From Anaerolineales bacterium (GTDB taxonomy: Bacteria; Chloroflexota; Anaerolineae; Anaerolineales; Villigracilaceae): 47,205 nt of DNA. Position 1 is the stretch's first letter; each line of letters begins with the position of its first letter. The notes under the pieces are model-generated. The model saw only the letters and a program-made list of their open reading frames with translations, was not told where the DNA came from and made no database searches. Made by a program: the position numbers and the translations under genes. Location: assembly GCA_014379595.1 (NCBI GenBank), contig JACMLM010000053.1, forward strand, positions 1-47,205, in the 5' to 3' direction. Of the stretch, positions 8,197-15,910 are shown piece by piece.

Positions 8197-9648
8197 ATGA
8201 AACTAACCTACGAACCCGTCATTGGACTTGAAATCCACGCTGAGTTGCAGACCAACTCAAAAATGTTCTGTGCCTGCTCAGCGGATTATTCCAACGCGCC
8301 AGAACCGAACACATTTATATGTCCCGTTTGCACAGGATTGCCTGGAGCATTGCCTGTATTAAATAAAAAAGCAATTGAACAAGCCACATTGGTAGGATTG
8401 TCATTGAATTGTTCCATCAACGAGTTTAACACCTTTGCACGCAAAAATTATTTTTATCCTGATCTGCCCAAAGGCTATCAAATATCTCAATACGAATTGC
8501 CGATTGCTTCCAAGGGTTATCTGGATGTTTTAGACGATACAGAGAATCCACTGCGCGTTGTCGTTCGGCGTGTACACATTGAAGAAGACACAGCCAAACT
8601 TGCACATGAAAAAAATTACGCACTAGTGGACTTCAACCGCGCAGGCGTGCCGCTGCTTGAAATCGTTTCCGAACCTGATATGCGGACAGTGGAAGCCGCA
8701 CTTTCGTACGCAACAAAAATTCGCGCCATCCTGCGCTATCTCGGGGTCAACTCTGGGGATATGGAAAAGGGTGTGCTGCGCTTCGAGGCGAATATCTCCG
8801 TCAGACCGAGTGGCAGCTCCGAGTTAAGGAAAAGAACCGAGATCAAGAATCTCAACAGTTTCCGCGCGCTGACTCGCGCATCCGCGTATGAGATCGATCG
8901 TCAAATTAAAGTTTATGAATCTGACGGCGAAGTGGTGCAGGAAACATTGGGCTGGGACGAAGCGCGCGGCGTGACCGTTTCGCAGCGCGGCAAGGAAGAC
9001 GCGCACGATTATCGCTACTTCCCCGAGCCAGACCTGCCCCCGCTTCAACTTGACCGCACGTGGATCGATTCGATCAAAGATCAACTCCCCGAATTGCCCG
9101 ATGCAAAAACTCAGCGTTTCATAAAACAATATGAATTGAAACGACAGGAAGCCATCCTGCTCACCTCTGAAAAATCGCTCGCAGATTATTTTGAGGGTGT
9201 GGTTTTCAAATCAAATAGCCCTGCAAAAACAATCCACTCGTGGATCGCGGGCGAGTTCATGCGCTATATGAATGACTCGGGAGTGGCATTGGAAGATATT
9301 AAATTATCTGCCGAACAATTCGCGCAACTGATTGACATGGTCACCGATAAAACCATCAGCAGCAACTCAGCGAAAGTTGTGCTCAATGAAATGCTTAAGA
9401 GCGGCGGCGACCCGCAGGAGATCGTCAAGGCTAAAAATCTCGCGCAGGTTTCAGATACAGGTTTTATTCAAGAAGCCATCGAAAAAATCCTGAGTGATAA
9501 TCCCAAGGAAGTTGAACAATTCCTCGCTGGCAAAGAAACCATCGTCCAATGGCTGATGGGACAGGTCGCCCGCGCCACCAAAGGCAAGGCGGACCCGAAT
9601 GTGGCGAAGGAGTTGTTGGTAAAGGCATTGGAAGCGAGAAGAAAATAA
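8197..9648 (+). CDS. gatB: Asp/Glu-tRNA amidotransferase subunit B
   Basis: The 483-residue GatB subunit binds the misacylated tRNA, phosphorylates its aspartyl or glutamyl group and amidates it. Visible hallmarks are the N-terminal [12 protein letters not shown], the zinc-site cysteines in FCACSAD and [25 protein letters not shown], and [10 protein letters not shown]-terminal YqeY-type helical tail ends KALEARRK. There is no clear Shine-Dalgarno before the ATG at 8197. The 3' end is remarkable: its last 30-120 bp recur at 10544, 14784 and 15998, each after a foreign-looking gene cassette, and no terminator follows this copy. Confidence 0.96.
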
Positions 9649-10543: not shown

Positions 10544-10618
10544 GCCACCAAAGGCAAGGCTGACCCGAATGTGGCGAAAGAGTTGTTGGTGAAGGCATTG
10601 GAAGAGAGAAGAAAGTAA
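10544..10618 (+). pseudogene. gatB 3'-end remnant (copy B)
   Basis: These 75 bp match the last 75 bp of gatB (9574-9648) at 70 positions, stop codon included. Four of the five differences are synonymous in the gatB frame (GCG/GCT, AAG/AAA, GTA/GTG, AAA/AAG); the fifth changes Ala to Glu. That pattern means the copy diverged while still coding, so it is an allele's tail rather than a fresh local duplication. A strong terminator follows four bases later, probably the original gatB terminator. Confidence 0.85.
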
Positions 10619-14783: not shown

Positions 14784-14897
14784 ATGCTATCTGGCAAAGA
14801 GACCATCGTCCAATGGCTGATAAGCCCAAAAGGCAAGGCGGACCCGAATGTGGCGAAAGAGTTATTGGTGAACGCGTTGGAATCGAGAAGAAAATAA
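14784..14897 (+). pseudogene. gatB 3'-end remnant (copy C), still an intact 37-codon frame
   Basis: About 110 bp match gatB 9524-9648, with one in-frame 15-bp deletion. Differences are again mainly synonymous (for example GAA/GAG, TTG/TTA, GTA/GTG). The remnant retains an ATG and reads [12 protein letters not shown], then [14 protein letters not shown], then ALESRRK and a stop. It could therefore make a 37-residue GatB-tail peptide, but no ribosome-binding site is evident. It marks the right end of the ABC/TetR cassette. Confidence 0.8.
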
Positions 14898-14903
14898 CAT
14901 ATT

Positions 14904-14945
14904 ATGTCATCCTGAGGGAGCGTTCTCCGCGACCGAAGGATCTCG
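14904..14945. repeat. Half copy of a REP-like repeat upstream of the GIY-YIG gene
   Basis: This 42-bp stretch starts ATGTCATCCTGAGGGAGCG and ends ACCGAAGGATCTCG. It is nearly identical to the left half of the full palindrome at 15268-15350. Together the two make direct repeats on either side of the GIY-YIG gene. Confidence 0.75.
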
Positions 14946-14968
14946 AATACCGTGGTAGAGGTGACTTC

Positions 14969-15259
14969 ATGAGCAAAGAATACTATGTCTATATCATGAC
15001 AAATAAGTCACGTACGCTTTATACAGGCGTAACTAATAATCTTATGCGTCGTGTGGATGAACATAAAAAGAAACTTGTCCAAGGATTTACTAGCAAATAC
15101 AATATTCAATTTTTAGCGTATTATGAGTCAACTCCAAGTATTCACGAGGCTCTTGTAAGAGAGAAACAAATTAAAGGTTGGTTGCGAGTAAAGAAAATCG
15201 CGCTGATAAACTCAATGAACCCTGGATGGAAAGACTTAAGTGAAGAATGGTTTGTTTGA
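14969..15259 (+). CDS. GIY-YIG single-domain nuclease (UvrC-N type)
   Basis: The 96-residue product consists only of a GIY-YIG endonuclease core. YYVYIM corresponds to GIY, LYTGVT to YIG, followed by NNLMRRVDEHK with the conserved Arg and a glutamate in HEALVREKQIKGW. The start is set at ATG 14969. The longer upstream frame is only read through the gatB remnant and a repeat. Small GIY-YIG genes of this type commonly sit among REP-like repeats, as here, and may act on those hairpins. Host function is unknown. Confidence 0.85.
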   Translation: MSKEYYVYIMTNKSRTLYTGVTNNLMRRVDEHKKKLVQGFTSKYNIQFLAYYESTPSIHEALVREKQIKGWLRVKKIALINSMNPGWKDLSEEWFV

Positions 15260-15267
15260 TTTGAATT

Positions 15268-15350
15268 ATGTCATCCTGAGGGAGCGGACTTCGCGACCGA
15301 AGGATCTCGAGGACTGCATACGAGATCCTTCGCTTCGCTCAGGATGACAT
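15268..15350. repeat. REP-like palindromic element
   Basis: Outer arms ATGTCATCCTGAG (15268-15280) and CTCAGGATGACAT (15338-15350) are perfect inverted copies. Inner arms CGAAGGATCTCG (15298-15309) and CGAGATCCTTCG (15321-15332) also pair. The GTCATCCTGAG...GAAGGATCTC sequence is a widespread environmental repeat. It begins nine bases after the GIY-YIG stop. Confidence 0.8.
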
Positions 15351-15353
15351 GAG

Positions 15354-15380
15354 AAGAGTCTCCTTGCGGAGACTCTTTTT
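15354..15380 (+). terminator. Intrinsic terminator after the GIY-YIG cassette
   Basis: AAGAGTCTCC pairs with GGAGACTCTT over a TTGC loop and is followed by TTTG and a T-rich run. It ends rightward transcription and lies just beyond the stop of the leftward LURP-one-like gene, for which its T-tract is weaker. Confidence 0.75.
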
Positions 15381-15382
15381 GT

Positions 15383-15910
15383 TTATTTCTCTTTATTGTC
15401 TTTCTTCTTTTTCTCTTTTTTCTTGTCAGGGTGCGCCATAATATCAATCGCAACTGCTACAGCTAGAATGAGAATGTCATTCTGGCCGGAGCCGATCTCG
15501 ACGCCATAAGTATCCGTAAAGCTGAACCATTTCTTGGATACTTCAGCGACTTTGTTGCGCCCTTGTTTGATCGAATATTCATGGTCAAGGATACTGCCCT
15601 GCACGTCGAGGTCTTCCCCATTTTTGACCTTGACCATCCAGCGGTCACGCAGCGGCGAGATAAGCGCCTTTTTGATCGATGCAATCTCTTTGCCATCGGC
15701 ATCATCGATCACCATCGTATCGCGGATGGTGAGCAGGCGTTCCTGGATCTGGGCCAGTTTCTTGCCTTGTGCATCTTCAAAGACCAGCGTCTTGCGGATG
15801 CGGAGCACTTTGCCATCCACTTTGAATACTTTTTTGCCTTCCGCATTTTCGATCCAGAAGTCATCTCCAATGGAGATCAGGTTTTGACGTATTTTGTATC
15901 GAGTTGACAT
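15383..15910 (-). CDS. LURP-one-related (tubby C2-like) protein
   Basis: The 175-residue protein is built of repeated beta strands typical of the LURP-one/DUF567 fold: RYKIRQNLISIGDDFWIEN, KKVFKVDGKVLRIRKTLVFED, KKLAQIQERLLTIRDTMVI, and a central DRWMVKVKNGEDLDVQG. A hydrophobic stretch near the end (ILILAVAVAIDIM) is followed by a Lys-rich tail. Bacterial members are phospholipid-scramblase-like in fold, with no firm function. AAAGGAAACC precedes the ATG. It lies in the third cassette of the gatB accessory zone. Confidence 0.8.
   Translation of the reverse strand: MSTRYKIRQNLISIGDDFWIENAEGKKVFKVDGKVLRIRKTLVFEDAQGKKLAQIQERLLTIRDTMVIDDADGKEIASIKKALISPLRDRWMVKVKNGEDLDVQGSILDHEYSIKQGRNKVAEVSKKWFSFTDTYGVEIGSGQNDILILAVAVAIDIMAHPDKKKEKKKKDNKEK

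Follow-up and report, generated by a model that had tools for sequence, protein, structure and literature searches.

A small GIY-YIG nuclease gene paired with type-matched, CGTC-like repeats in an Anaerolineales bacterium and its relatives

Results

Organization of the GIY-YIG Locus

The window, i.e., the whole stretch of 47,205 nucleotides analyzed here (contig JACMLM010000053.1 of the Anaerolineales bacterium assembly GCA_014379595.1), contains a small GIY-YIG nuclease gene enclosed by repeats. The order is TetR gene, a segment copied from the 3' end of a different gene, 42-bp half repeat, GIY-YIG gene, 83-bp dimeric repeat and, on the opposite strand, a LURP-one-related (LOR) gene, with the following features:

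14785 to 14900, plus strand: left neighbour, a copy of another gene's 3' end and marker of the empty site (sequence comparison)
14897 to 15355, no strand: approximate extent lacking a counterpart at the sites of genomes G037, G056 and G030, where the upstream fragment leads directly to the LOR gene (alignment)
14904 to 14945, plus strand: left half repeat of the CTGAG type with GTC tag, ATCCT...AGGAT stem and CTCG tail, missing with the whole unit in G037, G056 and G030 (direct repeat and fold)
14969 to 15259, plus strand: GIY-YIG nuclease gene, 96 aa, in which the motif EKQIKGWLR includes and follows the presumed catalytic Glu (Pfam PF01541, E = 1.5e-14)
15268 to 15309, plus strand: first half of the downstream dimer, a direct repeat of 14904 to 14945 (fold)
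15310 to 15320, no strand: spacer between the dimer halves (sequence, fold)
15321 to 15350, minus strand: second, inverted half of the downstream dimer, ending in CTCAGGATGAC (inverted repeats I3 and I4, fold)
15383 to 15910, minus strand: right neighbour, the LOR gene (Pfam PF04525, E = 7.6e-20)

An earlier sequence-only reading of the locus had described the half repeat and the matching dimer half as direct repeats flanking the gene, and this was confirmed: positions 14901–14946 and 15265–15310 are 93% identical over 46 nt, with gaps to the gene of 23 bp on the left and 8 bp on the right. A longer ATG open reading frame from 14813 is present over the GIY-YIG gene; the gene start was set at 14969 because relatives align from this position on. 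As single-stranded DNA, the palindrome 15268–15350 folds at -30.2 kcal/mol (z = -8.3, equalled by 0 of 200 shuffles), and the left half repeat alone folds ordinarily (z = -0.19, equalled by 76 of 200 shuffles). The left repeat is a half and the right one a full dimer, and since the two copies are different variants, a plain target-site duplication was ruled out; the left core also recurs in the genome copies L007 and L013. The stretch 14785–14900 itself recurs in the window at 9527–9648 and 10550–10618 as well as in relatives.

Repeats and GIY-YIG Genes in the Source Genome

Three exact copies of GTCATCCTGAG were found in the window and eight in the 4.47-Mb genome, where the reversed control pattern gave none; two of the other five genome copies lie in real repeats (L007 and L013) and three are chance-like 11-mers as judged by eye. 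The broader tag GTCAYNCTGAG occurs 44 times in the genome compared to seven times for its control. GCGAG tags are about three-fold more numerous than CTGAG tags (144 vs. 44), and the window gene is paired with the rarer CTGAG type.

The genome holds five GIY-YIG matches, four of them stand-alone genes; a frame of 655 aa was taken for uvrC from its length alone. Three of the four stand-alone genes adjoin repeats, and these belong to three different families: CTGAG in the window, the GTTGGTCGAGTAG type on both sides of the gene at L002, and the GTCGTTGCGAG type downstream of the gene at L004. No adjoining repeat was found at the fourth (L001), which belongs to the group C13 that we take to be YhbQ-like. 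These four genes gave a first hint that the repeat family goes with the nuclease type. The C44-like genes at L002 (1319–1933) and L224 sit between GTTGGTCGAGTAG...CTCGACCAC-type repeats, the stop codon TAG of the former falls within the repeat, and L154 and L155 are close relatives. At L004 (region 1340–1500), the C22 gene is interrupted near its start by an insert of approximately 110–120 bp, which contains a CCACAGAG...CTCTGTGG palindrome.

Properties of the Encoded Protein

The only Pfam match of the window protein is GIY-YIG (E = 1.5e-14), and at E = 1e-3 it has no match in NCBIfam, PHROGs or PADLOC, so that neither a named NCBIfam family nor assignment as a phage or defence gene was retained. 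Its AlphaFold model (pLDDT 94.7) is matched best in Foldseek by the UPF0213 protein BH0048 (PDB 1zg2, E = 6.4e-5), then by Slx1 structures and weakly by the UvrC nuclease domain. By sequence, the best solved match is also 1zg2 (E = 6e-4), and PDB sequence matches to hemagglutinin (E of 0.17 and above) were treated as noise. A C13 query matches the window gene at E = 1.5e-6 only, with UPF0213 still the best fold match. Eight residues (Y5, Y8, Y18, G20, R28, H32, E65 and N84), which presumably have catalytic roles, are invariant in 31 aligned sequences. Across 28 pairs of eight genes dN was 0.07–0.27, and omega was 0.05–0.14 in the seven pairs with computable dS; dS was otherwise not computable, which we read as saturation. 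Some relatives' copies carry stops.

Enrichment of Repeats Beside the Nuclease Gene

Relatives of the window protein in the genome_contigs collection numbered 283, of which the best 80 were kept, giving 79 loci of 62–90% identity; this sample favours the CTGA type because the loci chosen are those nearest to the window protein. Within it, a CTGAG-type tag lies at most 300 bp from the gene in 71 of the 79 loci, which are distributed over many phyla. The tag density falls from 5.38/kb within 300 bp to 0.39/kb at 300–1000 bp and 0.048/kb beyond 1 kb, i.e., it is 112-fold higher near the gene than far from it. The GCGAG tag was absent within 1000 bp in the same 79 loci and occurred 14 times farther out.

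A hairpin detector whose sole requirements are a GTC tag and a stem no shorter than 5 bp was applied within 250 bp of 156 genes, after removal of four genome_contigs loci repeating same-genus loci. It was positive for 93 of the 100 genes closest to the window query, for 12 of the 17 closest to the C22 query and for 5 of 12 C44-like genes, with densities near the gene and beyond 1 kb of 6.2 vs. 0.64/kb for the window-query genes and 5.2 vs. 0.70/kb for the C22-query genes. The small GIY-YIG genes of the control group C13 showed no enrichment (6 of 27 positive, 0.53/kb near vs. 0.63/kb far). Independently of any motif, the likeness of left and right flanks was measured against control positions taken from each set of loci. 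The 95% limit of the controls was exceeded by 101 of 129 loci in the window clade, by 10 of 10 C44-like loci and by 2 of 25 C13 loci. Of the 129 loci with both flanks, 29 have a repeat on one side only and six are without any typed repeat up to 250 bp from the gene. For the reading of flanks, done in part by eye, 114 loci were reduced to 81 different genes. The reversed-pattern, distance, C13 and flank controls rule out chance association. The statement in the sequence-only reading that small GIY-YIG genes often adjoin such repeats is strongly supported, and the repeats are not equally frequent elsewhere, as their density drops away from the gene and at C13 genes. Other small GIY-YIG genes (L227, L228, L230 and L146) lie directly at tRNA-like sequences, some with a partial copy at the other flank as judged by eye.

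Correspondence Between Repeat Type and Nuclease Type

A tree was built from 114 proteins, of which 106 have one clear repeat type and the remaining eight were left out of the label count. The six repeat types require nine changes on this tree (minimum five) compared to a mean of 27.4 after shuffling, and none of 200 shuffles was as low, although the tree is weakly resolved (99 columns, six starred branches) and near copies and kinship inflate this test as well as the motif and copy-number tests described below. By record-title taxonomy the CTGA label spans 16 phyla, with many metagenome-assembled genomes among the records. The protein of a locus from a seventeenth phylum, Bacteroidota (L017), has the same sequence as one from Anaerolineales (L016), and the L017 contig may be misbinned.

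The sequence motif behind the presumed catalytic Glu was surveyed in 143 genes, 136 of which have one of seven repeat patterns within 250 bp; 40 further genus loci, less 13 duplicates and one without match, entered the survey. The motif (G/A)GSR was found in 23 GCGA genes and two untyped ones, GWxR in 78 CTGA, six CCGA and three untyped genes and, as an exception, one GCGA gene, KWxR exclusively in eight CCCG, four CCGG and four TTCGA genes (16 of 16), and SWSR in three GCGA and two CCGA genes. The rest comprises four single odd motifs and five genes without readable motif. Within the genus, 30 best-hit loci consisted of 10 CTGA, 16 GCGA and two TTCGA loci, one locus free of repeats within 250 bp (at a contig edge, G026) and one broken gene (G056). 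In all 28 typeable loci, one of which carries stops (G035), the repeat type agrees with the motif class as judged by eye.

Repeat Copy Number Across the Genus

Copy numbers were compared in 57 genomes of the same genus, 10 with the CTGA nuclease and 47 others, with kinship within the genus uncorrected. The median number of CTGAG tags was 22.7/Mb in genomes with this nuclease and 4.3/Mb in those without, an approximately five-fold difference (p = 3.4e-5) that stays when genomes of at least 85% completeness are compared (8 vs. 39 genomes, p = 2.8e-4). GCGAG tags did not differ between the same two groups of the 57 genomes (p = 0.48). No signal was detected for GCGA-nuclease presence against GCGAG copy number (p = 0.13), for which the gene set consists of best hits only and is incomplete. 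Four genomes are rich in CTGAG tags and lack the nuclease: G023 (179 tags, 87% complete), G055 (85 tags, 95%), G014 (76 tags, 77%) and G024 (74 tags, 86%).

Occupied and Empty Sites

Of 30 loci, the window included, 21 gave a match for the LOR gene, and the GIY-YIG gene adjoins it in two, the window and G022. In G037, G056 and G030 the left-neighbour fragment leads directly to the LOR gene, and GIY-YIG gene and repeat are both absent in between. At the same site, G023 carries a single CTGAG-type dimer and G024 a GCGAG-type dimer, both without gene. A second site is occupied by a GCGA-type unit in G041, G010, G001 and G024 and by a lone GCGA dimer without gene in G052, and both gene and GCGA repeat are missing in G029 and G018, which show a palindrome of another type by eye. 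The sequence-only reading had suggested looking for empty sites with a single repeat copy; sites with the repeat alone exist in G023 and G052. By their flanks, the 38 units of the genus were grouped into 17 clusters, a count that is approximate because any shared flank joins clusters and short or diverged flanks split them. The pattern supports a unit of gene and repeats that may be gained or lost together, and it fits gain and loss alike. The self-mobilising or repeat-processing element of the sequence-only reading is thus supported in part, mobility and processing both being putative.

The second intergenic site holds further elements elsewhere in the genus. At L311 (908–1486) a PDDEXK_3 nuclease gene lies between ACCACAAAG...CTTTGTGGT-type palindromes, where the Pfam match (E = 2.8e-39) refers to L311 only, palindromes were computed for L311 and L323, and L323, L308 and L314 were read by eye; possibly, this gene and its palindromes would represent a second nuclease-repeat system. 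In G053, the same site carries a gene for a 23S rRNA-intervening-sequence-type protein (L319, 1136–1507; Pfam PF05635, E = 3.5e-18).

Discussion

Relation to Known Repeat Systems

According to a survey from 2013, the CGTC superfamily of REP sequences occurs in five phyla, includes dRS3 of Neisseria and is without dedicated transposase, the question of which enzyme, if any, serves it being left open there (PMC3733652). In the same source, these repeats are defined by a tag of CGTC, TGTC or CCTC that stays unpaired and precedes a stem with AT at its start, and a stem of 8–9 bp, a loop of 4–5 nt and a CCA-like tail are further features of the superfamily (PMC3733652). The window repeat TGTC-ATCCT...AGGAT carries the tag and the AT-stem. 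The (C/T)GTC tag, the stem starting with AT in most of the repeat types analyzed here and the dimeric arrangement are shared with CGTC REPs, whereas the CTGAG type of the window has an uninterrupted outer stem of 5 bp, an interrupted inner stem and a CTCG tail, which places it outside the four published families as they are described in the survey. Stems of 8–9 bp were found in CCCG- and CCGG-type relatives and at several loci in plasmid records.

The plasmid records were obtained with two queries yielding homologue places in 34 records each, of which 18 were fetched, about one per organism group. The hairpin detector was positive in 17 of the 18 places, with 5.1/kb near the gene vs. 1.3/kb beyond 1 kb, and a CGTC-like repeat was recognized by eye in 14. 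None was seen at L336, L338, L346 and L347, i.e., in two Sinorhizobium places (including one of two S. meliloti genes), one Rhizobium and one Sphingomonas place. Homologues beside CGTC-like repeats were present in records of Azospirillum lipoferum, Novosphingobium aromaticivorans and Sinorhizobium meliloti, species that are named in the CGTC survey (PMC3733652). In a record of Neisseria gonorrhoeae, a homologue with the motif KWNR lies among CGTC-1-like repeats; it is 64.5% identical to a CCCG-type member from Chloroflexota and 43.4% identical to the window protein over 98% of the length of the latter. We take this homologue to be Ssn and its repeat to be the dRS3 motif. Ssn of Neisseria is reportedly a single-strand-specific GIY-YIG nuclease that acts on a genomic repeat and affects transformation. 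The two systems share a homologous GIY-YIG protein, with repeats nearby in the Neisseria record, and differ in repeat type and motif (GWLR in the window, KWNR in Neisseria).

The comparison with REP-associated tyrosine transposases (RAYTs; REPtrons, IS200/IS605 family) made in the sequence-only reading holds as an analogy, as in both cases a single nuclease-type gene is flanked by tagged palindromes that are dispersed over the genome and often arranged as inverted dimers. As a claim of kinship it fails: the window enzyme has the GIY-YIG instead of the HUH/tyrosine fold, and the tag is GTC instead of GTAG. Membership in the RAYTs is ruled out by the fold, since Pfam recognizes only GIY-YIG and the model matches GIY-YIG structures first. 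GIY-YIG enzymes hydrolyze DNA without covalent intermediate, which rules out transposition solely by the mechanism of RAYTs, and such an intermediate is not expected here. Free-standing GIY-YIG homing endonucleases are similar in possibly being inserted beside a presumed target; here, however, the target of the putative cutting would be a dispersed repeat and not one conserved gene site. Among solved structures the UPF0213 proteins are the best match by fold, and the C13 group, labelled YhbQ-like here, is without repeat enrichment.

The Repeat and a Probable Dedicated Nuclease

We consider it probable that the unit consists of a repeat and a dedicated GIY-YIG nuclease which would resemble the RAYT/REPtron systems in role, not in chemistry. 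The pairing is tight and specific for the repeat type, the type follows both clade and motif, and the CTGA nuclease goes with CTGAG copy number in the genus. In addition, the whole unit is present or absent at two sites, the repeat stands alone at others, and dN is low. From these patterns we infer cutting, a preference for single strands, a repair step and a direction of movement, which may be combined in the following way. What the nuclease most likely recognizes is the hairpin, with its tag, of the repeat type paired with it, probably in single-stranded form while DNA is being replicated, repaired or taken up, and a putative cut would be placed at or near this hairpin. The repeat would subsequently be spread by repair from a copy carrying repeat, gene and repeat, or by the released hairpin being used again; many repeat copies without gene would result, and the gene itself would be spread less often. 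Several observations speak against this reading: the GCGA nuclease gave no copy-number signal, four genomes are rich in CTGAG tags without the nuclease, some loci have no typed repeat or a one-sided one, four of 18 plasmid-record places are without CGTC-like repeat by eye, the two repeat copies in the window are different variants, and GIY-YIG chemistry is not that of RAYTs.

The strongest alternative, though unlikely, is a selfish gene akin to those of homing endonucleases, with the repeat as homing site: the nuclease would cut empty repeats and be copied in by recombination, and the repeats would spread by other means. The repeat-only sites agree with this, i.e., the CTGAG-type dimer of G023 at the window's site and the GCGA-type dimer of G052 at the site occupied in G041, as does the scatter of the 38 genus units over approximately 17 flank clusters. 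Moreover, the nearest repeats point with their tags outward in 40 of 94 two-sided loci, an arrangement like that of a gene placed within a dimer, and the three remaining orientations account for 21, 19 and 14 loci. However, gene and repeat are both missing from the window's site in G037, G056 and G030, and gene and GCGA repeat from the second site in G029 and G018, so that the unit may arrive or disappear in one piece. Homing alone also does not predict that nuclease presence goes with repeat copy number.

Less likely still is a nuclease serving its host, which would trim or resolve repeat hairpins in transcripts, during replication or during DNA uptake, with nearby repeats regulating the gene and mobility being incidental. 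The low dN values with saturated or large dS are in favour of such a role, and the Neisseria relative Ssn, reportedly a single-strand nuclease affecting transformation, points in the same direction. Yet the CTGA nuclease is patchy in the genus (10 of 57 genomes, not all of them complete), its location changes and some copies carry stops; in addition, the pairing is kept over about 16 phyla. Passive hitch-hiking, in which intergenic hotspots gather repeats and small genes and the association is functionless, is highly improbable: one intergenic site in the genus does hold several kinds of element, but the type-specific pairing (by eye, in 28 of 28 typeable among the 30 best-hit genus loci), the CTGAG repeat at the window gene despite the 144 to 44 excess of GCGAG in its genome and the C13 control genes without repeat enrichment argue against it.

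Returning to a repeat with its dedicated nuclease, the sequence evidence makes the nuclease a good candidate for an enzyme that has long been missing, namely the one by which such CGTC-like repeats are spread or processed. The wider claim would be that, throughout bacteria, this GIY-YIG clade supplies the dedicated enzyme that the CGTC REP superfamily has been lacking. It would then form a second REP-enzyme system parallel to the RAYTs with many repeat types, each with its own subclade, in which the short GWxR/GGSR/KWxR motif behind the catalytic Glu would act as a specificity code predicting the repeat arm; to this wider claim we assign an even chance. The general kind, a repeat with a dedicated enzyme, is already known, and the Neisseria Ssn may cover part of the nuclease-repeat pairing already. 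Among the matches listed in searches of open papers, no publication was found that links GIY-YIG genes to dRS3 or to these REP-like repeats; as far as these searches reach, the matching of nuclease and repeat types across many phyla, its accompanying motif and the link to the question of the CGTC enzyme are new.

The matched pairs of protein and repeat represent a concrete candidate for the enzyme serving CGTC repeats, and with such pairs available, both the question of the enzyme and the specificity code are directly testable in vitro. If the proposed relationship is true, the origin of a large share of intergenic palindromes would be explained, and the family would provide a range of tiny nucleases that differ in their specificity for hairpins.
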